From NCBI GenBank assembly GCA_017534835.1, contig JAFXVT010000065.1, positions 1-54,392 on the forward strand: 54,392 bases of DNA, in the 5' to 3' direction. Within the stretch, counting starts at the first letter, position 1. Every line of letters begins with the position of its first letter. A program made the position numbers and the translations under genes. Below the pieces are notes generated by a model. The model worked only from the letters and a program-made list of their open reading frames with translations. It had not been told where the DNA came from and made no database searches. The stretch comes from Ruminococcus sp. GTDB lineage: Bacteria > Bacillota > Clostridia > Oscillospirales > Ruminococcaceae. This document shows, one piece after another, positions 26,618-39,739 of this stretch.

Positions 26618-28015
26618 ATGAACAAAATGAAGAGAAAAGGCATTCTCAAGAGAATTGCTCTGTGTTCTGTAGCGCTGACGATGCTCGCCTCTGCAACAGC
26701 CTGCGGCAAGCCTGAGAGTGCCGGCGGCAAGATCGCTGTCATCGCCAAGAATGAGAAGGTCTCGTTCTGGGATGAGGTCAAAAAAGGCGCTGAGGACAGC
26801 TGTGAAGAGCTTGGCTACGAGCTCCTCTACTACACAGCTACGAACGATAACGACTACGCAAGCCAGATCGAGGCTGTGAACAAAGCTCTCGACGCAGGCG
26901 CAAAGGCTATCGTTATCGCACCGAATGACCCGAACGAGCTCAATTCGGTATTTGATAAAGCTACGAAGCGCGGCGTGAAGATACTCAACATCAACTCGCG
27001 CTCCAACTACGACGGCATCGTTTCGTACGTTGGTTCGAGCGACTTCGACGGCGGCGCTGTTGCCGCAAGAAACGCTGCGAACATCTACTTCAGCAGCATT
27101 TCCGAGGACGAAGAGAACATCGGCAAGATCGCGATGATAGGACATACCGCTGCAACAGCTGATCTCCGTCTGACCGGTTTCAGAGCGACGATCTCACCCA
27201 CGCTCGGCAAGTTCATCGGCGAGCGTCAGGCTGCAAAGGCTCAGGCTGCTGCTGCAAAGGCACAGGAAGAGGCTGCTGCCGGAGCTGCACAGGGCGGCTC
27301 AAAGGGCGGCACTTCCTCAGGCGGCGGTTCACCTGTTGAGATAGCTGCGAATGCGGCTGCAACTCAGGCTGCACAGGGCGGAGCTCCCGAGGCTGCTATC
27401 CTCAATGCTGCTCTTGGCGCTGCACGTTCCGCAGCTGCCGGAACAGGCGCATCCGAGGCTGATATACAGGCTGCTGCACAGGCTGCTGTCGCTGCTGTTA
27501 CAGGCGGCGCTCCTGCTGAGACAGAAGCTCCCGAGGATACGACCGAGACAGAAGCTGCCGATGAACAGACTCAGGGCGGACCTCCCGCAGGCGGCGCAGA
27601 TATGATCGCTGACTTCTTCATCGAGGGCGAGCGCTGCGGTACTCAGGAGGCTGCTTACGAAGAGGCTAAGAAGCTCATCGAAGCAAATCCCGATATAAGA
27701 GTTATGTACACAACGAACACGAATACGACTCTCGGTGCATGTAAGGCAGTCGAAGAGCTTGAACTCGCTGACCAGATCACTCTTGTCGGCTTCAACTCAG
27801 ACGAGGAGGAGCTCAAGTACATCAAGTCGGGCATCCTCGACGGAACTATCATCCAGAACCCTTACACTATCGGCTACATCGGAACAAGATACGCAATACA
27901 GGCTGCACAGGGACAGGGCGTTACAGGCTCGCTCGATACCGGTGTTACATGGATCTCGGCAAAGAACATCAACGATGACGATATCCAGCTCCTGCTGTAT
28001 CCTGAAAAAGCATAA
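26618..28015 (+). CDS. Ribose-type periplasmic sugar-binding lipoprotein with a large low-complexity insertion
   Basis: 465 residues from ATG 26618 (TAAGGAGG 9 nt upstream). The lipobox SATAC places the lipid cysteine near residue 30. The fold is RbsB/Peripla_BP_4: KIAVIAKNEKVSFWDEVKKG, YASQIEAVNKALDAGAKAIV, then ANPDIRVMYTTNTNTTLGA and QITLVGFNSDEEEL. Between the two halves, at about residues 203-327, lies a 125-residue stretch almost wholly Ala, Gln, Gly, Glu, Ser and Thr. It interrupts the usual link between the helix of RLTGFRA and the next strand. It is probably a disordered or helical extension exposed on the surface. No permease genes are present. A second GGDEF-like membrane protein follows 14 nt later. 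Confidence 0.82.
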   Translation: MNKMKRKGILKRIALCSVALTMLASATACGKPESAGGKIAVIAKNEKVSFWDEVKKGAEDSCEELGYELLYYTATNDNDYASQIEAVNKALDAGAKAIVIAPNDPNELNSVFDKATKRGVKILNINSRSNYDGIVSYVGSSDFDGGAVAARNAANIYFSSISEDEENIGKIAMIGHTAATADLRLTGFRATISPTLGKFIGERQAAKAQAAAAKAQEEAAAGAAQGGSKGGTSSGGGSPVEIAANAAATQAAQGGAPEAAILNAALGAARSAAAGTGASEADIQAAAQAAVAAVTGGAPAETEAPEDTTETEAADEQTQGGPPAGGADMIADFFIEGERCGTQEAAYEEAKKLIEANPDIRVMYTTNTNTTLGACKAVEELELADQITLVGFNSDEEELKYIKSGILDGTIIQNPYTIGYIGTRYAIQAAQGQGVTGSLDTGVTWISAKNINDDDIQLLLYPEKA

Positions 28016-28029
28016 GGAGGGTCAAACTA

Positions 28030-29247
28030 ATGGCAAAAGCTACAACCAAGAAAAGTACGGCTGCTTACAGACTTGCGGCGATCCTGCTCGCGCTGGTATC
28101 GGCAGTGAATATGTTCCTCGTTTTCTACGTATTCAGCAACATCACAAATATCGGCAGACAGACCTCAACAACGATGAACACCATCAACTCTGTAAACGGT
28201 GAGCTCCAGAGCATCAACCAGCGAGTTCTTACCATCATCGCCGGCATCGGTACTCCTCAGAGTCAGGCTGCTGTCGCAGACAGTATCGAGAGCTCGTTCC
28301 AGTCTATCGACAAGAAGCTCGATACCTTCGAGAATTACGAAGGACTCACTGACGCTACAGTAAAGCGCTGCCGCCACGCAAGAGTTTTCCTTGAGGCTTA
28401 CCGCGCTCGTCTTTCCACACTCCGTGATCAGATGGAGAGCGAAGAGGGACTTCCGGATTCAGTAAGTCTTTCCGACATCTACACTCAGGACATCTATCCC
28501 CTTGAAACTACTGCTACCGAGATGCTTATCGCTACTATCTCGATCAACGCAGCGAACACAGCAAAGACTCAGGCTCAGTCGGCACGAGTATTCGTTATCT
28601 CCGAGATCGTAATGGGAGCTATCCTTATCCTCGGTGAGCTCGCTATCTTCCTCTTCGCAAGAAGAGCAAAGAAGGCAAATATGGAGATCGAGGAGCGTGA
28701 GAAGAACCTTCAGGAGGTCGATGCAAAGCTCAAGTCTACAAGACAGAAGGCATCAGACCTTGCCCTTACGAACCTCCTTACAGGTATGAAGAACCGCTAT
28801 GCGCTCGATAACGACATCAGCGGACGCCTCGAATCCGACCGCTTCAACATCGCCGTATTCGATATGGATAACTTCCGTATCATCAACGATACCTACGGCT
28901 ATGAGTTCGGCGACGAGTACCTCGCAGCTGTTGCTGAGAAGCTCAAGGAAGAGTTCAGCGACATTGCCGAGATCTACAACATCACCGGCAACGAGTTCTG
29001 CTTCGTATTCAACAAGGAGTACACCGAGAGCCAGTCAATGGCGTTCGTTCAGAAGATACACTCTGTAATGAGCAGCCCGTTCACTGTCCTCAACCTCACA
29101 GTTCAGCTCACTGTCTCCGGTGCAGCATATCACTATCTCCCCGGCGACTGCCTCAACGTGAACTCGCTTCTTGTCAAGCTTGATACAACGATGAGAAATG
29201 CTAAGATGAACGGCGGTAATATGGTAAATACCGTTATGAATATGTAA
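28030..29247 (+). CDS. Membrane receptor with degenerate GGDEF domain
   Basis: 405 residues. TM1 about 15-36, an extracellular helical segment of about 145 residues resembling a four-helix-bundle sensor, TM2 about 190-212, a coiled-coil linker (about 215-245), then a GGDEF-type domain. The substrate/metal region DMDNFRIINDTYGYEFGDEY is well preserved but the signature reads TGNEF instead of GGDEF, with Asn for the catalytic Asp. Activity is doubtful; GTP or c-di-GMP binding is possible. AAGGAGGG precedes ATG. It shares an operon with the binding protein upstream and ends at a strong terminator, repeating the sensor/binding-protein pairing of 23373-26112 in reverse order. Confidence 0.8.
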   Translation: MAKATTKKSTAAYRLAAILLALVSAVNMFLVFYVFSNITNIGRQTSTTMNTINSVNGELQSINQRVLTIIAGIGTPQSQAAVADSIESSFQSIDKKLDTFENYEGLTDATVKRCRHARVFLEAYRARLSTLRDQMESEEGLPDSVSLSDIYTQDIYPLETTATEMLIATISINAANTAKTQAQSARVFVISEIVMGAILILGELAIFLFARRAKKANMEIEEREKNLQEVDAKLKSTRQKASDLALTNLLTGMKNRYALDNDISGRLESDRFNIAVFDMDNFRIINDTYGYEFGDEYLAAVAEKLKEEFSDIAEIYNITGNEFCFVFNKEYTESQSMAFVQKIHSVMSSPFTVLNLTVQLTVSGAAYHYLPGDCLNVNSLLVKLDTTMRNAKMNGGNMVNTVMNM

Positions 29248-29537: not shown

Positions 29538-30095
29538 ATGATGAAATTTGCCGTGTACAGTTCTGATACAGGGCAGTATTGCTATCGCTACGCGGATTCG
29601 CTCCAACAGGTAAAGGGCACCGGCTACGAGGACCTTATACGTGAGGAGCAGCTTCCCGTCGTTTTCGACGACAGCGGCGGATACTTCAGATTTGACCCGA
29701 ACGACCGGCATTTCGTCGAGGTCATCGAATCAGATAAGACGTGCCCTCTTCCGCTTGACAGGATGTTCAGGCGCAATGACCCCGGCTTCCGGCTCGGGTG
29801 GATCTCTCCGGAAGGGGATACATATTCCTGCGCCTATACCAAGCACAACAAATGCGCGGAAACTATCGTCCGCACGCTCTACCGCACGGAGAAATATCCC
29901 GAGCTCACGCTCCACAGAAAGGGCTGGATAGAGGTCATTGATTCGTGGGACGCGACCGAGCAGAAGCACAGCAGATATGTTCACTCCGAGCGCGGCGAGA
30001 TAACGAGGAAGCAGGCAGACAAGCTCTTCGACCTCGGACTCTACGACAGACCGGAGGTACAGAAGCTCATCAGATCGAGCGAGGCTGGATGGTGA
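29538..30095 (+). CDS. Uncharacterised cytoplasmic protein
   Basis: 185 residues, not recognised. GGGGAGGG lies about 11 nt before the first ATG; a second ATG follows immediately. It has no signal peptide or TM. It contains FDDSGGYFRFDPNDRHFVE, GWISPEGDTYSCAYTKHNK and an ITRKQADKLFDLG helix. The repeated Trp/Tyr/His content suggests a compact alpha/beta domain. It has its own promoter and only a weak hairpin after it (GCGCC-ggaaa-GGCGC at 30117-30131). It stands between the sensor cluster and the signalling cluster and cannot be assigned to either. Confidence 0.6.
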   Translation: MMKFAVYSSDTGQYCYRYADSLQQVKGTGYEDLIREEQLPVVFDDSGGYFRFDPNDRHFVEVIESDKTCPLPLDRMFRRNDPGFRLGWISPEGDTYSCAYTKHNKCAETIVRTLYRTEKYPELTLHRKGWIEVIDSWDATEQKHSRYVHSERGEITRKQADKLFDLGLYDRPEVQKLIRSSEAGW

Positions 30096-30171: not shown

Positions 30172-30200
30172 TTGACTTTGTTTTTACGATGTAGTATAAT
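30172..30200 (+). promoter_or_regulatory. Sigma-A promoter of the coiled-coil/hydrogenase-like operon
   Basis: TTGACT (30172-30177), 17 bp, TATAAT (30195-30200), 95 nt before the start. Confidence 0.8.
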
Positions 30201-30295: not shown

Positions 30296-31384
30296 ATGGC
30301 TGGCTCCGCATTTATCAGGACCGTCACATACGGCGGCTACGACAAGGCTGATGTGATACGCAGACTTGATTCTTTATACGGGCAGATTTCCGGACTTGAA
30401 AACGAACTGCGCGAAACAAAGCTCCTGCTCGAAGGAAACGAGAACGGCAGGGAGATGAAGGTAACTATCGAGACCATCCTCGCCGAGGGCAGGGCAAAGC
30501 TCACCGAGGCGCAGAAGGAGAATGAGACTCTCTCCGCTAAGCTCAGGTCGGCTGAGGACACGATAAAAAAGAACGAGAACGAGATAAAGAAGCTGACTGC
30601 TTCGCTCGAAGAGGCGAATGCAAAGCTTGAGGAAGCTAATGCAAAGCTCGCGGCAGGCTCCGGAGACGAAAAGGCTGACCTGAGCACGGTGTTCATCGAG
30701 GCGAAAAAGTCGGCGGATATGATAGAAAAGGCTGCGAAGGAAAATGCGGAAAAGCTGCGTAACTCAGCTGATGAGGCGGCTAAGCAGTCAGTCGCGTTTG
30801 CGAACGATGAGGCTGAAAAGGTCATCAACGACGCCGAGCGCAAGGCTGCTGAGATAGTCGCGGACGCTAAGAATTCGGCTGGCAAAATGGAAGCGGCTTA
30901 CAACAATATGCGCGCGTCGATTCATTCCGAGATGACCTCGCTCGGTGTGCAGCTCAACAATTTCAAGGAGGCACTGACCAGGTTCGAGGAGAACGGCATC
31001 GGCAACCTCTACAAGTGCGAGGAGCTCCTCGCAAAGACCGAAGAGACCCTTACAGCAGGCGGAGTTCCCGAATTCTCGAAGCCCGAGAAGGTGTCGCCCG
31101 ATTACCCCGAGCGCCCGAAGAGAAAGGCTGACCCCGACGAGATAGACGCGAAAAAGCGTAAGAGCGGACTCGAAAAGCTCAGACAGATGGCTGAGTCCAT
31201 AACTGCTCCGAAGGAGAAGGCGGAGGAGACTCAGGCAGAGAAGAAGCCCGAGCCAGCAAAGGCAGCCGGGAATGATGACAAAAACAGCGGACCGGACGGC
31301 AGTTCCGCGGAAAAAGGCAGCAAGAGCGGCAAGACAGACCTCTCTGCACTCGCCGAAAAGGCTAAAGCGCTGAAGAATAAGTAA
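30296..31384 (+). CDS. DivIVA-like coiled-coil protein
   Basis: 362 residues. The start FIRTVTYGGYDKADVIRRLD resembles the DivIVA N-terminal membrane-curvature motif (GYD..EVD.FL). A long coiled coil follows (about 25-230, with EEANAKLEEANAKL heptads and Ala/Lys/Glu-rich segments). The C-terminal 130 residues are Lys/Pro/Glu-rich and disordered. Such proteins organise septum or pole machinery. It lacks the full DivIVA consensus, so the link is moderate. The iron-sulfur hydrogenase-like gene starts 37 nt after its stop with no terminator between, so they are probably one transcript. GGGAGGGATTGG precedes ATG. Confidence 0.6.
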   Translation: MAGSAFIRTVTYGGYDKADVIRRLDSLYGQISGLENELRETKLLLEGNENGREMKVTIETILAEGRAKLTEAQKENETLSAKLRSAEDTIKKNENEIKKLTASLEEANAKLEEANAKLAAGSGDEKADLSTVFIEAKKSADMIEKAAKENAEKLRNSADEAAKQSVAFANDEAEKVINDAERKAAEIVADAKNSAGKMEAAYNNMRASIHSEMTSLGVQLNNFKEALTRFEENGIGNLYKCEELLAKTEETLTAGGVPEFSKPEKVSPDYPERPKRKADPDEIDAKKRKSGLEKLRQMAESITAPKEKAEETQAEKKPEPAKAAGNDDKNSGPDGSSAEKGSKSGKTDLSALAEKAKALKNK

Positions 31385-31420
31385 TATCCTTACCAATTTA
31401 TTATACAAGGAGTATCGTGA

Positions 31421-33097
31421 ATGAATGAACTTATCATTGTAAAGCCTGAAAAATGTACAGGCTGTAATTCGTGCATAAGAAGCTGTCCAGCGCCCGAAGC
31501 CAATACTGTCAGGAAACTCGACGGCGGCAAGCTCATCGTATCTGTAAATCCCGATAAATGTATCGCTTGCGGCGAATGTGTCCGCATCTGCAACCACGGC
31601 GCAAGAGACTATCTCGACGACACCGAGGAATGTATGTCCCACCTCATCAAGGAGAAGCTCATAATCATCGCTTCTCCGGCTATCAAGGCTGCTCTGCCGA
31701 CAAAGTGGAAGGGCGTGCTCGACTGGTTCAGAGATCAGGGCTGCACGATCTATGACGGTTCGTTCGGCGCGGACATCTGCACATGGGCTCATGCAAGAGC
31801 TATCGAGCAGGGGACTATCGAGAATATCGTAACTCAGTCCTGCTCGTCGATCGTCAAGTATATCGAGACCTACCAGCCCCAGATGCTGCACAATCTTTCG
31901 CCTATACACAGCCCCGCATCGTGCTCGGCTATCTACATAAGGAAGTACCTCAGACGCAACAATCCCATTGCTTATCTTTCGACCTGTATCGCCAAGAAGA
32001 TCGAATTCAACGATACCGGGCTCATCGACTACAACATCACGATCGACAAGATGATGGGATATTTCGAGAGAAACGGCATCAGTATCCCCGTTGATACCGG
32101 CGACAGCTGGGAGTATAAATTCGATGACACTCAGGGTCAGATGGGAAGCGTCTATTCGCGTCCCGGCGGAATGAGAGACAATCTCTGGCTGCATGACCCG
32201 GATATAAATATCACGACCTCAAAGGGCGTTCAGAGCGTTTACAACGAGCTGAATATGTACTCGAAAATGCCCGAGGCTAAGCACCCGCAGGTGTTCGACG
32301 TCCTCTCGTGCGATTTCGGCTGCAACATCGGACCGGCTGCGCAGACGAACCAGACCGTCTTTGACGTTATGGACGTGATGCGCAAGGTCGAGAACGACGC
32401 AAAGAACCGCCGCAAATCGGGATTTATGGGCAGGAGAGACGACAAGCTCTTCAAGCGCTTCGATGAGGAGCTGCGCCCGTCCGATTTCCTTCGCAACTAC
32501 AAGCCGTCAGTGCCCTCGCCTATGCCGTCCGCGCAGCAGCTTGAGCCCGTGTTCAAGAAGCTCGGCAAGACGACAAAGGAGGAGAAGGAATTCAACTGCC
32601 ACGCCTGCGGATTCGATTCGTGCAGGGATATGGCTATCGCTATCGCGCGCGGACTGAATACGCCGGATAACTGTATCATCCACGCGAAATCCGTGCTGCT
32701 TTCCAAGCACTCGAACGTTTCGATACACAACGAAAAGCTTGAGGAGATCTCGGAGGAATGTCTCGGGCTCTCCGCTCAGCTCAAGGAGGACATCGCCGCT
32801 ATCACGAGCAGTATGAGCTCGATCGACGAATCCACCTCCGCTACGAAGGAGCGTGCGGCAGTCGTGAAGGACCTGCTCGAAAACGTTGTTTCCTTCTGCT
32901 CGGACAACCCGACAATGGACGAGGAGAGCGTTGAACAGCTCATCGGTATCCTCAATATGACGATAGACGCATTCAGCGGACTCGATGACAACGTGAACAC
33001 CACGAACGAGAGCTCAGAGGCGATAAACGGCTCACTGACGAAGATAACCTCGCTCGTTGAGAAGATGAACGAAACGCTCGGAAAGTCAAAAGAATAA
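31421..33097 (+). CDS. FeFe-hydrogenase-like iron-sulfur protein, probable sensory type
   Basis: 558 residues. The N-terminus has two [4Fe-4S] ferredoxin motifs (CTGCNSCIRSCP, CIACGECVRIC). About 80-330 resembles the FeFe-hydrogenase H-domain. The TSCCP motif is altered to QSCSS, the second motif is STCIAKK (usual PCxxKK) and the third is SCDFGC (usual CPGGC), so several cluster cysteines remain but the active site is modified. About 395-435 has a further FeS module (CHACGFDSC, then C near 431). The last 120 residues are a helical, chemoreceptor-like coiled coil (DIAAITSSMSSIDES). H-cluster proteins of the sensory class lack efficient catalysis and sit near phosphatases and kinases, and here a kinase/PP2C set lies just downstream. 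AAGGAG precedes ATG. Confidence 0.78.
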   Translation: MNELIIVKPEKCTGCNSCIRSCPAPEANTVRKLDGGKLIVSVNPDKCIACGECVRICNHGARDYLDDTEECMSHLIKEKLIIIASPAIKAALPTKWKGVLDWFRDQGCTIYDGSFGADICTWAHARAIEQGTIENIVTQSCSSIVKYIETYQPQMLHNLSPIHSPASCSAIYIRKYLRRNNPIAYLSTCIAKKIEFNDTGLIDYNITIDKMMGYFERNGISIPVDTGDSWEYKFDDTQGQMGSVYSRPGGMRDNLWLHDPDINITTSKGVQSVYNELNMYSKMPEAKHPQVFDVLSCDFGCNIGPAAQTNQTVFDVMDVMRKVENDAKNRRKSGFMGRRDDKLFKRFDEELRPSDFLRNYKPSVPSPMPSAQQLEPVFKKLGKTTKEEKEFNCHACGFDSCRDMAIAIARGLNTPDNCIIHAKSVLLSKHSNVSIHNEKLEEISEECLGLSAQLKEDIAAITSSMSSIDESTSATKERAAVVKDLLENVVSFCSDNPTMDEESVEQLIGILNMTIDAFSGLDDNVNTTNESSEAINGSLTKITSLVEKMNETLGKSKE

Positions 33098-33234
33098 AAT
33101 GAGTTGCACTATGGCGATATAACATTTAAGCAATTCTCACATTATAAATTATTCTGCAACATAACACAGAGCACGAAGTATTTGCTTTTGTGCAATTTGT
33201 ATAAAAGCGGGACTTATGTTCGTCGTTCTGTTCC

Positions 33235-33263
33235 TTGACAAGTCACCTTGTAAGTGATATAAT
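33235..33263 (+). promoter_or_regulatory. Consensus promoter of the kinase/vWA/phosphatase operon with TCAC/GTGA dyad
   Basis: TTGACA (33235-33240), 17 bp, TATAAT (33258-33263). The spacer carries an imperfect dyad, TCAC-cttgtaa-GTGA (33243-33257), a possible operator. The leader is about 105 nt. Confidence 0.75.
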
Positions 33264-33375
33264 TAAACAGTAAGTAATGTGCGTATCTATACTATAATTA
33301 ATATAACACAATCCCGCTTGGCTCGCAGCAGAAATGCTGCCCCTCATTGCTGAGCGCTAAATCAGGAGGGAAACT

Positions 33376-34410
33376 ATGCAGTGCGAAAAATGCGGTTCTG
33401 AACTCAAACCCAAATATGTCGCCTGCCCCGGATGCGGAGCGCCTGTTCCGCAGACGATAGAGGGCTTCGAGAACACTATCGACTTCCAGCATCAGATGAG
33501 AGCGATAGTCGTAGACAACGGCCCGAGGGCGGTAATGAACAAGAAACAGTTTATGGGTCTGCTCTATGACCACATTCCCGACTACGACAAGGAACGCCGT
33601 CTGCTCCAGAATATGTACAATATGGGCGTTTTCAGGATGCTGCTCGCTGATGACAACCGCGAGATAGCCATTATGAAGGCGAAGAGCTATATGATCGGCG
33701 ACCTTTTCATCGCAGAAAATGCAGCGGAATTCGTTCTTGCCTGCTTCACATATCTGCTTGGCTGGCCGTATGAGTCACCGATGAGGATAGTTTCCGATGA
33801 CAACGAGCCTGAGCCCGAGCCCGAGAAGAAGTCCTCGCGGCTGAGCATCGACACAAAGATATTCCGCCCGATAGACGCCGTGAGATACCGCCTCAGAAGC
33901 AACATCGAGATAGCCGAGGGCTATACCAAGATAGAGAGCTTCTGCTTCGACGGATACGGCTCGCTGAGAACGGTGAAGCTCCCCTCGACCCTGCTTGCGA
34001 TAGGCGAATACGCCTTCTCATCGTGCAAGCGTCTGAGAGGTCTTGAACTGCCGGATTCACTGAAGGTGATAAAGCAGGGCGCGTTCTGCCAGTGTGCTAA
34101 GCTCGCGATGGTGAAGATACCGACAGGAATCCTCGAAATAGAGGACAGCACGTTCTCGTTCTGTACGAGCCTTGAAACGATAGACATCCCCGATACCGTC
34201 AGCAGTATCGGCGCAGAGGCTTTCTCAGGCTGCGAAAAGCTCAGAAAGCTCTATCTTCCCGACAGCGTCAAGTTCATTGATACCAACGCCTTCTCGTACT
34301 GCACAAACCTCACTATCCATTGCTTTGAAAACTCTTATGTACATAAATTCTGTCTTTCCAACCGTATCAATTTCAGACTTGTAACTACCGCAGGGATTGA
34401 AGAGGATTAA
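33376..34410 (+). CDS. Zinc-ribbon protein with BspA-type leucine-rich repeats
   Basis: 344 residues, no signal peptide, so cytoplasmic. A zinc ribbon opens it (CEKCG at 3-7, CPGCG at 17-21). A helical segment of about 110 residues follows (KKQFMGLLYDHIPDYDKERR) with no clear family. An acidic Pro-Glu linker leads to BspA/LRR_5 repeats at about 190-330 (ESFCFDGYGSL, IGEYAFSSCKRLRGLELPDS, IGAEAFSGCEKL). BspA repeats are usually secreted, so a cytoplasmic version beside a kinase and phosphatase suggests a binding platform for signalling partners. GGAGGG precedes ATG and the gene starts the operon promoted at 33235. Confidence 0.7.
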   Translation: MQCEKCGSELKPKYVACPGCGAPVPQTIEGFENTIDFQHQMRAIVVDNGPRAVMNKKQFMGLLYDHIPDYDKERRLLQNMYNMGVFRMLLADDNREIAIMKAKSYMIGDLFIAENAAEFVLACFTYLLGWPYESPMRIVSDDNEPEPEPEKKSSRLSIDTKIFRPIDAVRYRLRSNIEIAEGYTKIESFCFDGYGSLRTVKLPSTLLAIGEYAFSSCKRLRGLELPDSLKVIKQGAFCQCAKLAMVKIPTGILEIEDSTFSFCTSLETIDIPDTVSSIGAEAFSGCEKLRKLYLPDSVKFIDTNAFSYCTNLTIHCFENSYVHKFCLSNRINFRLVTTAGIEED

Positions 34411-34414
34411 TACT

Positions 34415-34456
34415 ATGACAGAACATACCACTAACGGAAAGGATGTAATCATATGA
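34415..34456 (+). CDS. 13-codon ORF coupled to the kinase start
   Basis: ATG 34415 to TGA 34456 encodes MTEHTTNGKDVII and overlaps the kinase start by four bases (ATGA). Both ORFs begin ATGACAGA. It has no clear ribosome site of its own. It may only carry ribosomes from the preceding gene to the kinase. Confidence 0.25.
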   Translation: MTEHTTNGKDVII

Positions 34457-35796
34457 CAGAGCTTGAAATTGGTCAGGAAGTCGAACTCGAATTCGGCGGA
34501 AAGGCACAGGTTTTAAGTGTTATCGGAAGCGGTGGACAGGGTACCGTCTACCTTGTACGTTTCAACGGTCAGAAATGGGCGCTGAAATGGTACGATATAG
34601 ATAAGATGAAAAAGCCCAAGGAGTTTATCAAGAACCTCCGCAGCAATATCGCGGACGGACCTCCGGATAATAAATTCCTCTGGCCGAAATACCTCACAAA
34701 GGAAGCTGAGGACGGAACATTCGGCTATATAATGGACCTCAAGCCCGAGGGATTCGACTCGTTCGTAGATATCCTCAATACCTACAAGCTCGAGGTCGAC
34801 CCACTCACAGGACGCGCTGTCAAGAAGGACGTCAAGTTCAGCAGCCTCACAGCGATGATAACCGCTGTCATCAATATCGTCAACTCCTTCCGCCTCCTCC
34901 ACAGAGCCGGAAAGAGCTATCAGGACCTTAACGACGGAGGCTTCTTCATCAACGTCAACACCGGTGCCGTCCTCGTCTGCGACTGTGATAACATCGCCCC
35001 GGACGGAAGCAACTTCGGTATCGGCGGTAAGCCCGGATATATGGCGCCCGAGGTCGTAAGAGGCATCGCTCAGCCGAATGTACAGACCGATAAGTATTCG
35101 CTCGCGGTCGTACTGTTCAAGCTCCTCTTCCGCGGTGACCCGATGGAGGGCGAGAAGGTCGTGAGAGATGTATGCCTCACAGAGTCCTCCGAGCTCAGAC
35201 ACTACGGTCAGAACGCCGTCTTCGTGTATGACCCGAAGGACGCTTCAAACCGCCCTGTAAGAGGTATCCACGACAACGTTATCAAGTTCTGGAGGATATA
35301 TCCGGACTACATAAAGGACGCATTCATACGCTCGTTCACGACAGGTATCACCGACCCGACAAAGCGTATAATCGAGAACGAATGGCAGAAGCTCTTCATC
35401 AGGCTGCGCAGCGAGATAATCATGTGCGGCTGCGGAAGAACGAACTTCGCTTCGATGTTCGTCCAGCCGACAGAAAAGACCTTCAAGTGCCCGAAGTGCG
35501 GTATGGAGTTCGCAACGCTCGGCTTCAGCAACAGAAGCTACAGAATGCCGCTCTACCTCGGCTGCAAGTTCTACGAATGCGAGATGATCCCCGAATCCGA
35601 GGAGTTTATGAAGGTCGCCGGCGAGCTCGTCGAGAACAAGCTCAAGCCCGGTGTGCTCGGAATAAAGAATTGCTCAGACAGAAAATGGCGTGCAAAAATG
35701 CCCGACGGCGTTTTTTACGATATAGCTCCGGGAAAAGGCTTCCCGGTATGGCAGGGTCTCGAGATCGACTTTGGCGAGATCAAAGCCCAGATCTAA
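34453..35796 (+). CDS. Ser/Thr protein kinase with C-terminal zinc ribbon (TerY-P-type)
   Basis: 447 residues. The glycine loop is GSGGQGTVY (25-33), the ATP-anchoring lysine K45 (ALKWY), the catalytic-loop aspartate D158 in YQDLNDGGFFIN, and the metal motif D177-C-D179 replaces DFG (VCDCDN), followed by GYMAPEVV. The kinase fold is therefore complete but variant. At about 325-348 a zinc ribbon has CGCG and CPKC. A C-terminal domain of about 80 residues follows. Kinases fused to a zinc ribbon, next to a vWA protein and a PP2C phosphatase, form the TerY-P triad described in bacterial stress signalling. It is cytoplasmic with no TM. GGAAAGGATG is the ribosome site. Confidence 0.85.
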   Translation: MTELEIGQEVELEFGGKAQVLSVIGSGGQGTVYLVRFNGQKWALKWYDIDKMKKPKEFIKNLRSNIADGPPDNKFLWPKYLTKEAEDGTFGYIMDLKPEGFDSFVDILNTYKLEVDPLTGRAVKKDVKFSSLTAMITAVINIVNSFRLLHRAGKSYQDLNDGGFFINVNTGAVLVCDCDNIAPDGSNFGIGGKPGYMAPEVVRGIAQPNVQTDKYSLAVVLFKLLFRGDPMEGEKVVRDVCLTESSELRHYGQNAVFVYDPKDASNRPVRGIHDNVIKFWRIYPDYIKDAFIRSFTTGITDPTKRIIENEWQKLFIRLRSEIIMCGCGRTNFASMFVQPTEKTFKCPKCGMEFATLGFSNRSYRMPLYLGCKFYECEMIPESEEFMKVAGELVENKLKPGVLGIKNCSDRKWRAKMPDGVFYDIAPGKGFPVWQGLEIDFGEIKAQI

Positions 35797-35823
35797 TTTC
35801 AGCTTACTGAAAGGATGTATTTT

Positions 35824-36669
35824 ATGAATAATGATAATCTTGTCGAGCAGGGTATGAATACAGCTGCGGACATAAATAACAACTACAGTTCTGCTCCGGC
35901 AGGCGACGATCTCCTCGATTTCGACGACGATCCCCTCAGCGCTACAGGCGTTTCAAGAAAGAGCCTCGTTATCTTCTTCCTCATCGACACATCAGGAAGT
36001 ATGAAGGGCAAGAAAATGGGCGAGCTCAACACAGTTATGGAAGAGCTCATCCCCGAGATACGCAAGGTTGGCGAGGCTGACACCGAAGTAAAGGTCGCAG
36101 TCCTCACGTTCTCGACCGACGTAAGATGGATGTATTCCGCTCCTATCCCGATAGAGGAGTTCGAGTGGGCAAGACTCCGCGCAAGCGGCGTTACGAGCCT
36201 CGGTGCTGCACTGAAGGAGCTCAACGCAAGAATGTCGCGCAACGGCTTCCTCAACTCACCCTCACTCTCATTCGCTCCCGTTATCTTCCTTATGACCGAC
36301 GGCTATCCCTCGGACGATTACAAGGCAGGTCTCAAGGAGCTTCAGGCAAACAGCTGGTACAAGTTCGGACTCAAGGCTGCTCTCGGTATCGGAAGCGAAG
36401 CCAACGACAACGTTCTTGCTGAATTCACAGGCTCGGCTGACACAGTCGTTCACGCTTATTCCGGCGGTCAGCTCGCACAGATGATAAAGATAATCGCTGT
36501 TACCTCGTCACAGATCGGAAGCAAGAGTATGACTCTCTCCGACGATACGAGCCACGAGCTCGGCGAGGAGGACGTTTTTGCCGCAAAGCAGAAGCTCCTC
36601 GGACAGCAGATACAGGATCTCGTAGGCAAGGCAGAAGCAGACGATGTTCCTTTCGACACAGGTTGGTAA
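35824..36669 (+). CDS. vWA-domain protein (TerY-like)
   Basis: About 281 residues from ATG 35824; the upstream in-frame ATG 35815 overlaps the ribosome site GAAAGGA, so the second ATG is preferred. After an acidic N-terminus (about 1-45) the vWA domain shows an intact metal-ion site: DTSGS, the threonine in SGVTSLG and MTDGYPSD. It lies between the kinase and the phosphatase, 27 nt and 47 nt away. TerY-like vWA proteins are the third partner of the kinase/phosphatase triad and may bind metal or partner proteins. The C-terminal 60 residues are polar. Confidence 0.87.
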   Translation: MNNDNLVEQGMNTAADINNNYSSAPAGDDLLDFDDDPLSATGVSRKSLVIFFLIDTSGSMKGKKMGELNTVMEELIPEIRKVGEADTEVKVAVLTFSTDVRWMYSAPIPIEEFEWARLRASGVTSLGAALKELNARMSRNGFLNSPSLSFAPVIFLMTDGYPSDDYKAGLKELQANSWYKFGLKAALGIGSEANDNVLAEFTGSADTVVHAYSGGQLAQMIKIIAVTSSQIGSKSMTLSDDTSHELGEEDVFAAKQKLLGQQIQDLVGKAEADDVPFDTGW

Positions 36670-36716
36670 TAGCTGCCTGCTGCCGATAAAAAATACTGGA
36701 AGGAGTCCGGAATTCA

Positions 36717-37631
36717 ATGTTCAATGGTTTCAGTCACTCGGTCAAGGGTGCAAGTCATGAAAAAACAGGTCTTGTTTGTCAGGACAGCTCTGCATATAAG
36801 GTCTGTGACGATTATGCGATATGCGTTGTAGCCGACGGCCACGGAAGCAAGAAGCATTTCCGCAGCAATCTGGGCTCGAAATTCGCCGTAGAGGCGACTA
36901 TCTCGACGATAGACAGATTCTATGCGGACAAAGCGGGCTTCGAGGAGAATCTGCCGAAGAATTACAGGCTCATCATCAAGAATATCCAGAAGCAGATAAT
37001 CTCTGACTGGAACAAGCTCGTTGAAGAGCATCTGAGCCAGAATCCCGTTACAGACGAGGAGAAGAGCAAGTTCACAGAAGAGGAATTTGCCGCAATACAG
37101 CCGGAATCCTACTATGGCACGACACTTATCGTCGGAGTCGCCGGAAAGAATTTCACATTCGGCGTACAGATCGGCGACGGAACTCTTGTTGCCCTCTTCG
37201 ACGACGGAAAGGCTGTTATGCCGATGGAGTACAACGAGGCTGCTCCTGCGAACGTTACTGCTTCGATGTGTAACTCGAATGCTGCCGGTATGTTCAGCGC
37301 ATTCTACCGCGACAAGCAGAAGCTCATCGCGATGTTCACATCAACTGACGGACTCTATACCTCTTTCGGAAGCGAATTCGACTTCCTCGATTACCACACC
37401 ATAATCACAAGCAAGCTCAACGATTTTGAAAATCTGAAGAAGATCATCGTGAATAACCTCACAAAGCGCGCTCATTTCGGAACAGAGGACGATATTTCGC
37501 TCTCGTGTGTCTACGATGAGGAGCTCTTCGCTCAGAAGCACGACCTCATCGTTTCGGAAGTTGAAGCCAACAAGCAGCGTGCGGCTGAAAGAAAGGCTGA
37601 AAGGCTGAAGAAGCACGTTGAAACCGAATGA
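36717..37631 (+). CDS. PP2C-type Ser/Thr protein phosphatase
   Basis: 304 residues. Metal-binding motifs are present: QDSSAY (first Asp), VADGHGS, the STDGLY motif and GTEDDISL near the end, all as in PP2C/PPM phosphatases. A helical insert at about 85-125 separates the halves. The last 30 residues are Lys/Arg/Glu-rich. It would reverse phosphorylation by the kinase encoded two genes upstream, with the vWA protein between. GGAAGGAG lies upstream of ATG. It is cytoplasmic. Confidence 0.88.
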   Translation: MFNGFSHSVKGASHEKTGLVCQDSSAYKVCDDYAICVVADGHGSKKHFRSNLGSKFAVEATISTIDRFYADKAGFEENLPKNYRLIIKNIQKQIISDWNKLVEEHLSQNPVTDEEKSKFTEEEFAAIQPESYYGTTLIVGVAGKNFTFGVQIGDGTLVALFDDGKAVMPMEYNEAAPANVTASMCNSNAAGMFSAFYRDKQKLIAMFTSTDGLYTSFGSEFDFLDYHTIITSKLNDFENLKKIIVNNLTKRAHFGTEDDISLSCVYDEELFAQKHDLIVSEVEANKQRAAERKAERLKKHVETE

Positions 37632-37656
37632 TCTTTAGAAAGGAAAATGGTTGTTT

Positions 37657-38961
37657 ATGGAAATAAATGCACTTTATGAGACTGCGAAATACTTCGCCGG
37701 TATGATAAAGCAGAGCTATCCTCACCTTGAGGCTGACTCCGACGCCTGTCTCGCGCTCATTGTTGCTGATTCGGGCGACGTTTACACAGGTGTTACAGGT
37801 ATCACTATCAATGAGGGCAACCCCGTTTCACTTCCGGCAGAGGAGATAGCAGCGATGACTCTTATCACCGCGGGAAAAGTAGCACGTCAGATGGTGATAA
37901 TCACTATCGAGGACTACAGCTTCTGCGAGCCGTCCGAGGCAACGCTCAGGATGCTCGTGAATTCAACTCCCGAGAACGGAAGCTGTCAGGTCGTTTTATC
38001 GCTCGATGAAGCGGTCGCTTCTGCAAGCCTTATCCCGAATTCGGCTGAGGACTTTATGAGCGGCTACGACGATGATCTCTCCGCTCCCGAGCAGCCGGCA
38101 CCGGCAGCAGGTGCGCCCTCAGAGGCAGCTCCGGAGGCAGCAGCTCCGGCAATGGACGGCGTTGACACATCCTCGCTTGCAGCTCCGGCGGAGTTCGTAA
38201 GCGGCTTCGACATAGACGAAACAAATCCCTTCGCGACCTCCGGCGGTGCGAGCTCAGAGGTAAAGTCGTTCTACGACCAGCCCTCCGACGCTCAGCAGCA
38301 GGGTGTGAGCGGCTTCAACAATCCCTATGCGGCAGGTCCGAACGGCGAGAATATGCCTCAGGGCTATCCGCAGCCGGGAATGTACCCTCAGGGCGGCTAT
38401 CCGCAGCAGGGCTTCCCTCAGCAGGAGGGCTATCCTCAGCAGGGCTATCCTCAGCCCGGCTATCCGCAGCAGGGCTACCCTCAGCAGGGCTATCCCCAGC
38501 AGGGCTACCCTCAGCAGGGCTATCCTCAGCAGGGCTATCCCCAGCAGGGCTACGCTCCTCACGGCGGCTTCCAGCAGGGCTACCCTCAGCAGGGCTATCC
38601 GCAGCAGGGCTACCCCCAGCAGGGCGGCTATCCGCAGGCAGCTCCCTTCGGCGGCGGAGCAGCTCACGGCTCGGTATATCAGCCTAACGGCTTCCCGCAG
38701 GCAGCTCCTTACGGTACAGGCGGTCACAGCTCCGCTTACCAGCACGGCTCGGTATACGGCGGAAACGGCGATCAGGCTCGCAGTGTGATGCTCTCAAACG
38801 GAGACGGCGGAGCTTTCAAGAAGCGCCTTTCAAGCTTCCTTGATGACGACGACACCGGCGCAGGCGGCGGCGAGAACCTTTCAAAGGAAGAAATGCTCAA
38901 GCAGGCAAAGCAGCGTAAAAAGGTCGCAAAGGCTAACGTAGGCTTCAAGAACAAGTTCTGA
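37657..38961 (+). CDS. Degenerate cytidine-deaminase-like domain with YPQQG-repeat tail
   Basis: About 434 residues from ATG 37657 (AAAGGAAAA upstream). Residues 1-130 follow the cytidine-deaminase pattern: [20 protein letters not shown], then [14 protein letters not shown] where an active enzyme has C/H-AE, and [11 protein letters not shown] where it has PCGxCRQ. Several zinc ligands are missing, so I predict an inactive, ligand-binding fold. Residues about 130-235 are Ala/Pro/Ser-rich. About 240-330 holds some 15 YPQQG-type pentapeptides, a prion-like sequence prone to phase separation. The C-terminus is basic and helical ([17 protein letters not shown]). It closes the kinase/phosphatase operon and may be a substrate or scaffold. 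Confidence 0.6.
38390..38640 (+). repeat. 15-bp tandem repeats coding YPQQG
   Basis: About 15 units of the type GGCTATCCGCAGCAG, with synonymous C/T and G/A changes and a few variant units (AHG, FQQ, YPQP). Synonymous variation shows the peptide, not only the DNA, is kept. Confidence 0.9.
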
Positions 38962-39202: not shown

Positions 39203-39739
39203 ATGACTCATTTGCTCAATATAGATGAAGCTGTAGACCGTAAATTTCTTATCATCAAGAATATGAAGGGTCAGGCTGAAACTGGTACGATAATTCACGT
39301 TATGGACGCCGGAAAGAATTCCGATGGAAGCCTCGGCGTGGTATACCGTGTTGCTCGTTTCAATGAAAAATTCCACGATTATCAGGATTATACTGCCAAG
39401 TTTGAAAGCCTCGCTGCATTCTGCAAATGGGCTCAGCCGGACAATTTCATTGCCCGTAACTATGAAATGCTTTCGATAGGCGATATACAGCACTATATCA
39501 AGATCAAGAACAGAAGCTTCGGCTCGTTCTGCCTGCCGCTCATACTTATCGCGGCTGTACTGATATGGGCTCTTCTCATCATCGCTCTCGGCGTAGGTAT
39601 CCCGTCCGTCGTGATCGGCGTTCTGCTCACACTTGTGATCACAGCAGGTGTTCTTCTCCTGATGAAGAATCAGAAGAAGAAGGAAAAGGTACGCCTTTAC
39701 CGGAAGATAAGCTCGAACTGGGGCATCGTTCTCAAATAA
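39203..39739 (+). CDS. Small membrane protein with two TM helices
   Basis: 178 residues, not recognised. The first 105 residues look soluble (VDRKFLIIKNMKGQAETGT). Two hydrophobic helices follow at about 108-128 and 132-152, then a basic tail (KNQKKKEKVRLYRK) that should be cytoplasmic, so both ends lie inside. AAGGAAGG precedes ATG at about 10 nt. The gene has its own promoter and terminator and lies after the kinase/phosphatase operon; no functional link is evident. Confidence 0.65.
   Translation: MTHLLNIDEAVDRKFLIIKNMKGQAETGTIIHVMDAGKNSDGSLGVVYRVARFNEKFHDYQDYTAKFESLAAFCKWAQPDNFIARNYEMLSIGDIQHYIKIKNRSFGSFCLPLILIAAVLIWALLIIALGVGIPSVVIGVLLTLVITAGVLLLMKNQKKKEKVRLYRKISSNWGIVLK

Follow-up and report, generated by a model that had tools for sequence, protein, structure and literature searches.

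A group D-type sensory [FeFe] hydrogenase-like protein recurs beside a TerY-P kinase/vWA/phosphatase triad in Ruminococcus and its relatives

The 54,392-nucleotide stretch of Ruminococcus sp. DNA analysed here (hereafter the window; contig C20 of a 2.56 Mb genome) encodes a hydrogenase-like protein, HYD, that fits the group D type of putative sensory [FeFe] hydrogenases, and close downstream a kinase (KIN), a TerY-like vWA protein (VWA) and a PP2C phosphatase (PP2C) that homology supports as a TerY-P triad. The association between this type of sensor and the triad is genuine. Among 396 genomes of the family, 32 of the 35 that contain the sensor type also hold a close relative of the triad kinase, and in 24 of these 32 the two genes lie within 10 kb of each other. 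We assign a probability of roughly 0.5 to the reading that sensor and triad form a two-unit signalling neighbourhood, in which the sensor feeds the TerY-P switch via CC, a DivIVA-like coiled-coil protein encoded directly upstream of HYD.

All named genes were confirmed at their coordinates by open reading frame (ORF) and Pfam analysis. Every gene that the initial annotation had listed for this region is present where it was placed, namely those for the coiled-coil, H-cluster, zinc-ribbon/leucine-rich-repeat (LRR), kinase, vWA, PP2C and prion-like proteins. The coiled-coil protein is of a polar type (DivIVA-like), as that annotation had proposed, with the correction that it is encoded by a separate ORF (30296-31384). 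Rfam returned no match at gathering cut-offs. The features of the central region are as follows.

30172..30200, + strand: promoter-like site 5' of the CC/HYD unit, 11/12 matches (consensus match only)
30296..31384, + strand: CC, divergent DivIVA-like coiled-coil protein (Pfam DivIVA E 0.00047, below cut-off)
31421..33097, + strand: HYD, sensory-type [FeFe] hydrogenase-like protein with group D signature (Pfam, motifs, tree)
31655..32335, + strand: H-domain of HYD, residues 79-305, with the [4Fe-4S]H cysteines C141, C189, C297 and C301 (PF02906; invariant columns)
32591..32677, + strand: C-terminal Cx2Cx4Cx16C cluster motif of HYD, residues 391-419 (PF04060)
32675..33091, + strand: predicted helical hairpin tail of HYD, helices 419-495 and 501-557 (AF2 model)
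33235..33263, + strand: promoter-like site TTGACA-17-TATAAT with TG, 12/12 matches, between HYD and the LRR gene (consensus match only)
33376..34410, + strand: zinc-ribbon/BspA-type LRR protein (LRR_5 E 5.8e-37; zinc ribbon weak, below Pfam cut-off)
34453..35796, + strand: KIN, Ser/Thr-kinase-like protein with C-terminal zinc ribbon, the TerY-P kinase (Pkinase E 3.2e-11)
35815..36669, + strand: VWA, TerY-like vWA protein with intact DxSxS motif (Pfam VWA; motif)
36717..37631, + strand: PP2C, phosphatase with intact catalytic Asp motifs (PP2C_2 E 1.8e-32)
37651..38961, + strand: PRION, low-complexity YPQQG-repeat protein (no Pfam family; 52/87 loci by tblastn)

Linkage of the sensor and the TerY-P triad

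In the survey of 396 genomes, a close kinase was defined as a KIN match of at least 60% identity, and the sensor set comprised matches of about 690 bits and up together with G272, where the sensor is split over two contigs; the next lower match scored 611 bits. Close kinases were present in 46 genomes. Linkage within 10 kb extends to 9/10 genus codes. One genome, G346, is linked solely through a second sensor copy (693 bits), and dropping G321 (706 bits) leaves 31/34 sensor genomes with the kinase and 24/31 of these linked. The conserved linkage of sensor and triad that the initial annotation proposed is borne out by these counts. It had taken independent occurrence in most genomes as the observation that would speak against the link: this was not found for the sensor, given the 32/35 genomes with a kinase, and was found in part for the triad, as 14 of the 46 genomes with a close kinase lack the sensor type.

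Sensor and triad remain close in four relative arrangements. Among the 24 linked genomes, the triad lies downstream of the sensor on the same strand in 16, upstream on the opposite strand in 5, downstream on the opposite strand (convergent) in 2, and upstream on the same strand in 1. On a sensor tree of 86 rows, we count at least 11 changes of arrangement, with 8 among the linked rows alone. These counts address the conservation of gene order that was initially suggested as a check.

A second sample consisted of 87 loci, which overlap in organisms with the 396 genomes and are not independent genomes throughout, since L143/L144, L128/L146, L148/L157 and L057/L058 each share one. By tblastn, triad genes were detected in 60/87 of these loci, and in 39/51 of those flanked by 7 kb or more on each side. 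Where triad genes were missing from the locus (27 cases), 13 of 19 tested genomes hold a close kinase elsewhere, as do all of 4 more that were checked; L167, L172, L176 and L195 were left out. The neighbours themselves were compared across 80 sensor loci, the best 80 of 176 relatives and hence biased to close kin. Outside the cluster and the gene for the periplasmic binding protein SBP, described below, no neighbour family is present in more than 9/80 loci. A chance neighbourhood is ruled out by the counts together with this flank control. In a smaller sample of 148 genomes, 3/6 full-length close sensors lie near a triad, and it was the larger samples (80 loci, 396 genomes) that shifted the reading to linkage. 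Variant loci (L168, L170, L173, L175, L187, L188, L193 and L055:4193-8985) have genes for an AAA ATPase-like protein, a large LRR protein and a DUF2201-vWA protein adjoining the sensor; three of them (L168, L170 and L193) have no close triad kinase in the genome. In a further arrangement, AAA, LRR and DUF2201-vWA genes sit between sensor and triad.

HYD, its tail and its DivIVA-like partner

Pfam resolves HYD into two Fer4 domains carrying N-terminal 4Fe-4S motifs, Fe_hyd_lg_C (E 8.5e-20), the iron-sulfur domain PF04060 and a helical tail, with no PAS domain. Its AlphaFold2 (AF2) model (pLDDT 89) has a hydrogenase fold according to Foldseek, and the closest named sensor relative, at 84% identity, is that of Ruminococcus flavefaciens MC2020 (L118). 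We compared active-site residues over 80 rows, comprising the window and 79 orthologs, using CpI numbering. All 80 rows retain the four cysteines that belong to the [4Fe-4S] part of the H-cluster. Cys299 occurs in 0/80 rows, the Met353 position is occupied by Ser in 59/80 and by Thr in 21/80, the Met497 position by Leu in 80/80, and the run of glycines in the third motif differs, confirming the altered active-site motifs noted initially. Towards the C terminus, C393, C396, C401 and C418 form a Cx2Cx4Cx16C motif, and PF04060 is found in 47/48 relatives.

Absence of Cys299 and a changed Met353 are given as features of group D in the cited part of PMC8163306. As described for TamHydS and group D (M2e) in the corresponding parts of PMC8163306 and PMC13104023, two N-terminal clusters, an H-domain without Cys299, replacement of Met353 by Ser and of Met497 by Leu, a C-terminal Cx2Cx4Cx16C motif and the lack of a PAS domain are all shared with HYD. 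On this comparison with TamHydS, made by description only, HYD fits a putative sensory [FeFe] hydrogenase of the group D (M2e) type. It is unlike TamHydS in adding a predicted helical hairpin of ~140 residues, and in having a DivIVA-like partner and a TerY-P operon nearby. The active-site changes are those published as the signature of group D, so this type of sensor protein is already known, and its biochemistry has been described (PMC8163306, PMC13104023). Judged on the titles and abstract openings of the papers listed in searches, no link of a sensory [FeFe] hydrogenase to a TerY-P triad or to DivIVA was found.

The position of HYD in an H-domain tree agrees with this class. In a tree obtained with a quick method and a single outgroup row, the 11 rows labelled group C, with PAS verified in one of them (L041), form one clade (99), and HYD with its relatives another (98). 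The group D motifs and the separation from group C uphold the initial view of a sensory-type H-domain protein. Group C sensors have been described as phosphatase-linked (PMC5037454; R. albus, PMC6776011) and as chemotactic types. With HydDB C3 and the Ruminococcus albus group C sensor, as these are described in the same two sources, the window shares an H-domain sensor near a Ser/Thr phosphatase, within the same bacterial group. However, L041, the C3 representative that was checked, has a PAS domain and a SpoIIE-type neighbour and belongs to the separate clade, whereas HYD of the window is without PAS and its PP2C_2 phosphatase has a kinase and a vWA protein nearby. We rejected an identity with the phosphatase-linked C3 type on these grounds. 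A role of HYD as catalytic hydrogenase was likewise rejected, as the other H-domain protein of the genome is the canonical, catalytic one (342 bits). The maturases HydG (915 bits) and HydF (549 bits) are also encoded in the genome.

The receptor-like coiled-coil tail of the initial annotation corresponds to a predicted helical hairpin, with AF2 pLDDT values of 71-87 over the block of residues 421-558. Other outputs are attached to the same H-domain among relatives, including an MCPsignal domain, as in methyl-accepting chemotaxis proteins (MCPs), in 12/48 aligned members, one of which (L066) has a weak PF00015 match (E 0.006). MCP, HD and histidine-kinase domains are all found at the C-terminal end of relatives, which supports a view of the H-domain as a portable input with a sensory, not catalytic, role. 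Two individual fusions of a group-D-type H-domain were recorded, one to an HD domain (L038:7829-9847) and one within a PAS/histidine-kinase/receiver/hemerythrin protein (L034:5335-9375).

An MCP-type output on the H-domain of HYD relatives recalls the HydDB C2 chemotactic sensors. The window tail differs from these in having neither an MCPsignal (PF00015) match nor an MCP tip motif, and an hhalign comparison of the HYD tail with MCP tails was weak (33 columns covered, probability 29). CheW is present in 11/11 genomes with MCP-tailed relatives as labelled and in 53/148 genomes overall. The window genome has no CheW match, so an MCP-style CheA/CheW route is not evident there; a direct MCP/CheA route was rejected on this basis, although CheW is present in 3/6 genomes with a full-length window-type sensor in the 148-genome sample. 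The nested position of the hairpin type in the tree and the weak PF00015 match of L066 make it plausible, despite the weak hhalign result, that the hairpin may have derived from an MCP tail, with tail labels on the tree being rough: L067 is labelled hairpin though MCPsignal is present, and L033, L069 and L071 were labelled by default.

CC directly precedes HYD in 77/80 loci, with a median gap of 45 bases. Against the Pfam DivIVA model, CC of the window scores 20.6 bits (E 0.00047; cut-off 28), and 23/34 CC orthologs match at E<=0.01. A GGY-type start marks DivIVA, and CC shares with the DivIVA of the ftsZ region this conserved N-terminal GGY, a coiled coil and homology to ftsZ-linked copies, one of which passes the Pfam cut-off at 34.8 bits. 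In contrast to ftsZ-region DivIVA, CC adjoins HYD and carries a short C-terminal DLAALAKQA-type motif, which is duplicated in some relatives (L166, L168, L191). DivIVA-like homologs were detected in 22/148 genomes. Among 13 loci examined away from the sensor, homologs of CC lie near ftsZ in 3 and near a sensor gene in none; others stand beside a fumarase-type gene, in one case checked by Pfam and otherwise by eye. By sequence, HYD has its own DivIVA-like protein.

The triad and its flanking genes

A TerY-P triad is defined, in the cited part of PMC11090510, as a TerY-like vWA protein, a PP2C phosphatase and a kinase with a C-terminal zinc ribbon. KIN, VWA and PP2C are supported as such a triad, as the initial annotation had recognized. 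They are adjacent and in the same order as the triad of Prevotella plasmid pE2-28, which stands beside a protein annotated TerY-C, and they match its members by profile (KIN E 5.5e-101, VWA E 4.9e-61, PP2C E 6.3e-53, in a small target set). Matches to E. coli YegI, YegL and PphC, again in a small target set, are weak. The C-terminal ribbon of KIN (CxC..CxxC), a further likeness to TerY-P kinases, was read from the sequence, and no Pfam zinc model reaches its cut-off. Metal-site residues of the vWA domain and the PP2C aspartates are conserved. KIN is kinase-like and may phosphorylate its targets; it keeps the lysine and the catalytic aspartate. The kinase in the R. flavefaciens MC2020 genome (G168) is 98% identical to it. 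Unlike pE2-28, the window has LRR and disordered proteins joined to the triad, and KIN carries G for N in the catalytic loop (DLNDGGFFI versus DLNDGNFFI) and DCD for DND in the metal motif (CDCD versus CDND). Four of five distant family kinases have the loop N and CDND, and the fifth (L112) has GG and CDCD. As the paired change also occurs in triads without a sensor, it is a property of the KIN clade.

Sensor and triad genes probably belong to two neighbouring transcription units and not to one operon, as indicated by separate promoter-like sites (consensus matches) before CC and between HYD and the LRR gene, and by the long HYD-LRR gap (median 274 bases in 18 cases, versus 26-53 within the triad operon). 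In the region, 13 promoter-like sites were found versus 8.9 expected from shuffles, and the site at 33235-33263 is the only one with 12/12 matches.

Further genes of the neighbourhood are the following.

26618..28015, + strand: SBP, periplasmic sugar-type binding protein of the wider neighbourhood (Peripla_BP_4 E 1.3e-42)
28030..29247, + strand: DGC, membrane protein with a GGDEF domain, altered motif TGNEF (GGDEF E 4.1e-21)
29538..30095, + strand: P0, 185-aa protein of no assigned family (no Pfam family above cut-off; AF2 pLDDT 93.4)
39203..39739, + strand: small protein with hydrophobic stretches, often near sensor or triad (25/87 loci)

The SBP gene, the GGDEF gene and P0 lie upstream of CC on the same strand, and all three recur in relatives. 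By clustering, an SBP-like family is present in 36/80 loci; the window SBP has a long Ala/Gly/Ser-rich insert inside its periplasmic-binding domain. The TGNEF motif is 97-100% conserved per position over 38 rows, and its presence in nearly all orthologs suggests that cyclase activity of the GGDEF protein is unlikely. Genomes that lack the sensor likewise have related GGDEF genes close to the triad.

The AF2 model of P0 is confident and had no fold match in the PDB (best Foldseek E 0.47). P0 is encoded in 6/148 genomes, each with a CC/sensor pair. A full-length sensor is present in five of these; in G071, the remaining one, the contig ends after the CC gene and the first 54 residues of a sensor. 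P0 is absent from one sensor genome, G090. Its presence follows that of the sensor also where the two genes lie apart, for example on different contigs in G035. The small protein at 39203..39739 switches sides between loci, and the last ORF of the window, towards the downstream contig end, is an open frame of 2076 aa that resembles LRR proteins.

A proposed signalling neighbourhood and its alternatives

In the signalling reading, the first unit (CC, HYD and perhaps P0) would pair a soluble sensory [FeFe] hydrogenase of the group D type with a DivIVA-like protein of its own. The second (LRR, KIN, VWA, PP2C and PRION) would be a phosphorylation switch of the TerY-P kind, complemented by the zinc-ribbon/LRR protein as adaptor and by a disordered protein. 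Either H2 itself or the redox state of the electron pool that supplies the iron-sulfur chain would alter the state of the H-cluster, and the C-terminal cluster domain would shift in response, together with the hairpin. From the hairpin, the signal could pass via the DivIVA-like scaffold, located at the pole or at curved membrane, and reach the kinase and the phosphatase, for which the vWA and LRR proteins would act as adaptors. This reading builds on the observed architecture, group D motifs, TerY-P homology, recurring neighbourhood and co-occurrence, the presence of HydG and HydF and the lack of a CheW match; from there we infer H2 or redox sensing, a hairpin-DivIVA contact, a signal to the kinase, phosphorylation and an output. 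Whether such loci amount to a further class of H2 sensing in rumen Ruminococcus, combining a hairpin in place of the MCP tip, CC as polar anchor and a TerY-P switch with P0 and an SBP/altered-GGDEF receptor, is a more tentative matter, and we consider this extended proposal possible but on balance doubtful.

Several observations weigh against a signal from sensor to triad. The wide HYD-LRR gap and the separate promoter-like sites divide the two units. A sensor without a close kinase was found in G260 (99% complete), G362 (72%) and G399 (81%), and five tested members of one sensor clade (L168, L169, L170, L177 and L193) have no close kinase in their genomes. Conversely, close kinases occur in the 14 sensor-less genomes counted above, and in G019, of the same genus and without the sensor, the triad still has LRR, PP2C, PRION and GGDEF genes near it. 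The Fisher p of 1e-32 for co-occurrence ignores shared ancestry. CheW is found in half of the genomes with a full-length window-type sensor, and no second DivIVA-like copy was detected in the window genome at E 1e-15, an ftsZ-linked copy thus not being seen. Finally, Lys358 is kept in just 52/80 sensors, although the alignment may shift some, and the catalytic loop of KIN has the Asn-to-Gly change.

The main rival explanation is that the sensor with its DivIVA-like protein and the TerY-P operon are two independent modules that function separately and are neighbours by inheritance and local rearrangement. Each has its own promoter-like site, and 8/32 genomes with both do not carry them within 10 kb on one contig, although some of these cases may be contig breaks. 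In sensor-less genomes, too, the triad has the same gene order and often a GGDEF gene beside it, and DivIVA-like proteins exist away from the sensor, with 0/13 examined copies near a sensor gene. Against this, adjacency is kept in each of four relative orientations even as the remaining flanking genes change, most tested genomes with a triad-less locus (13/19) still hold a close kinase, and P0 accompanies the sensor even from another contig; we regard independent modules as rather unlikely. The nature of the input is a separate matter. The initial annotation had already allowed for either H2 or redox. HYD could be an iron-sulfur redox sensor without a di-iron subsite, responding to the state of ferredoxin or of oxidants instead of H2, as the loss of Cys299, the Ser or Thr at position 353 in all 80 rows, the partial retention of Lys358 and the changed glycine run would suggest. 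The four [4Fe-4S]H cysteines are nevertheless invariant, HydG and HydF are encoded in the genome (though catalytic HydA needs them too), and the group D enzyme TamHydS, with Met353Ser and no Cys299, is described as still turning over H2 (PMC8163306), which leaves a sensor lacking the subsite unlikely in our view. A third possibility concerns the triad, which might be an anti-phage or tellurite stress cassette with the sensor incidental to it. TerY-P has been linked to restriction systems and, in Pseudomonas, to anti-phage activity (PMC11090510, PMC10889362), and KIN has weak PADLOC matches, all to kinase domains of other systems. VWA and PP2C had no match in PADLOC, a library not checked for TerY-P models, and the recurrent neighbours in the 80 sensor loci are the sensor, DivIVA-like, SBP and GGDEF genes (rarer families being unannotated). 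We consider a stress cassette very improbable.

Sensory hydrogenases of groups C and D have been studied biochemically, and their signalling role is described as putative or unresolved in the cited parts of PMC8163306, PMC13104023 and PMC5037454. With the recurring link, a TerY-P switch and a DivIVA-like scaffold become concrete candidates for their signalling partners. If the signalling reading is true, the TerY-P triad would gain an input outside restriction and tellurite systems. Many of the named sensor loci come from rumen Ruminococcus, and in the rumen H2 feeds methanogens (PMC6776011). A second H2- or redox-responsive route beside the group C sensor, if it exists, would bear on rumen fermentation, and the link between sensor and switch suggests a way in which fibre-digesting Ruminococcus may answer H2 or redox state.

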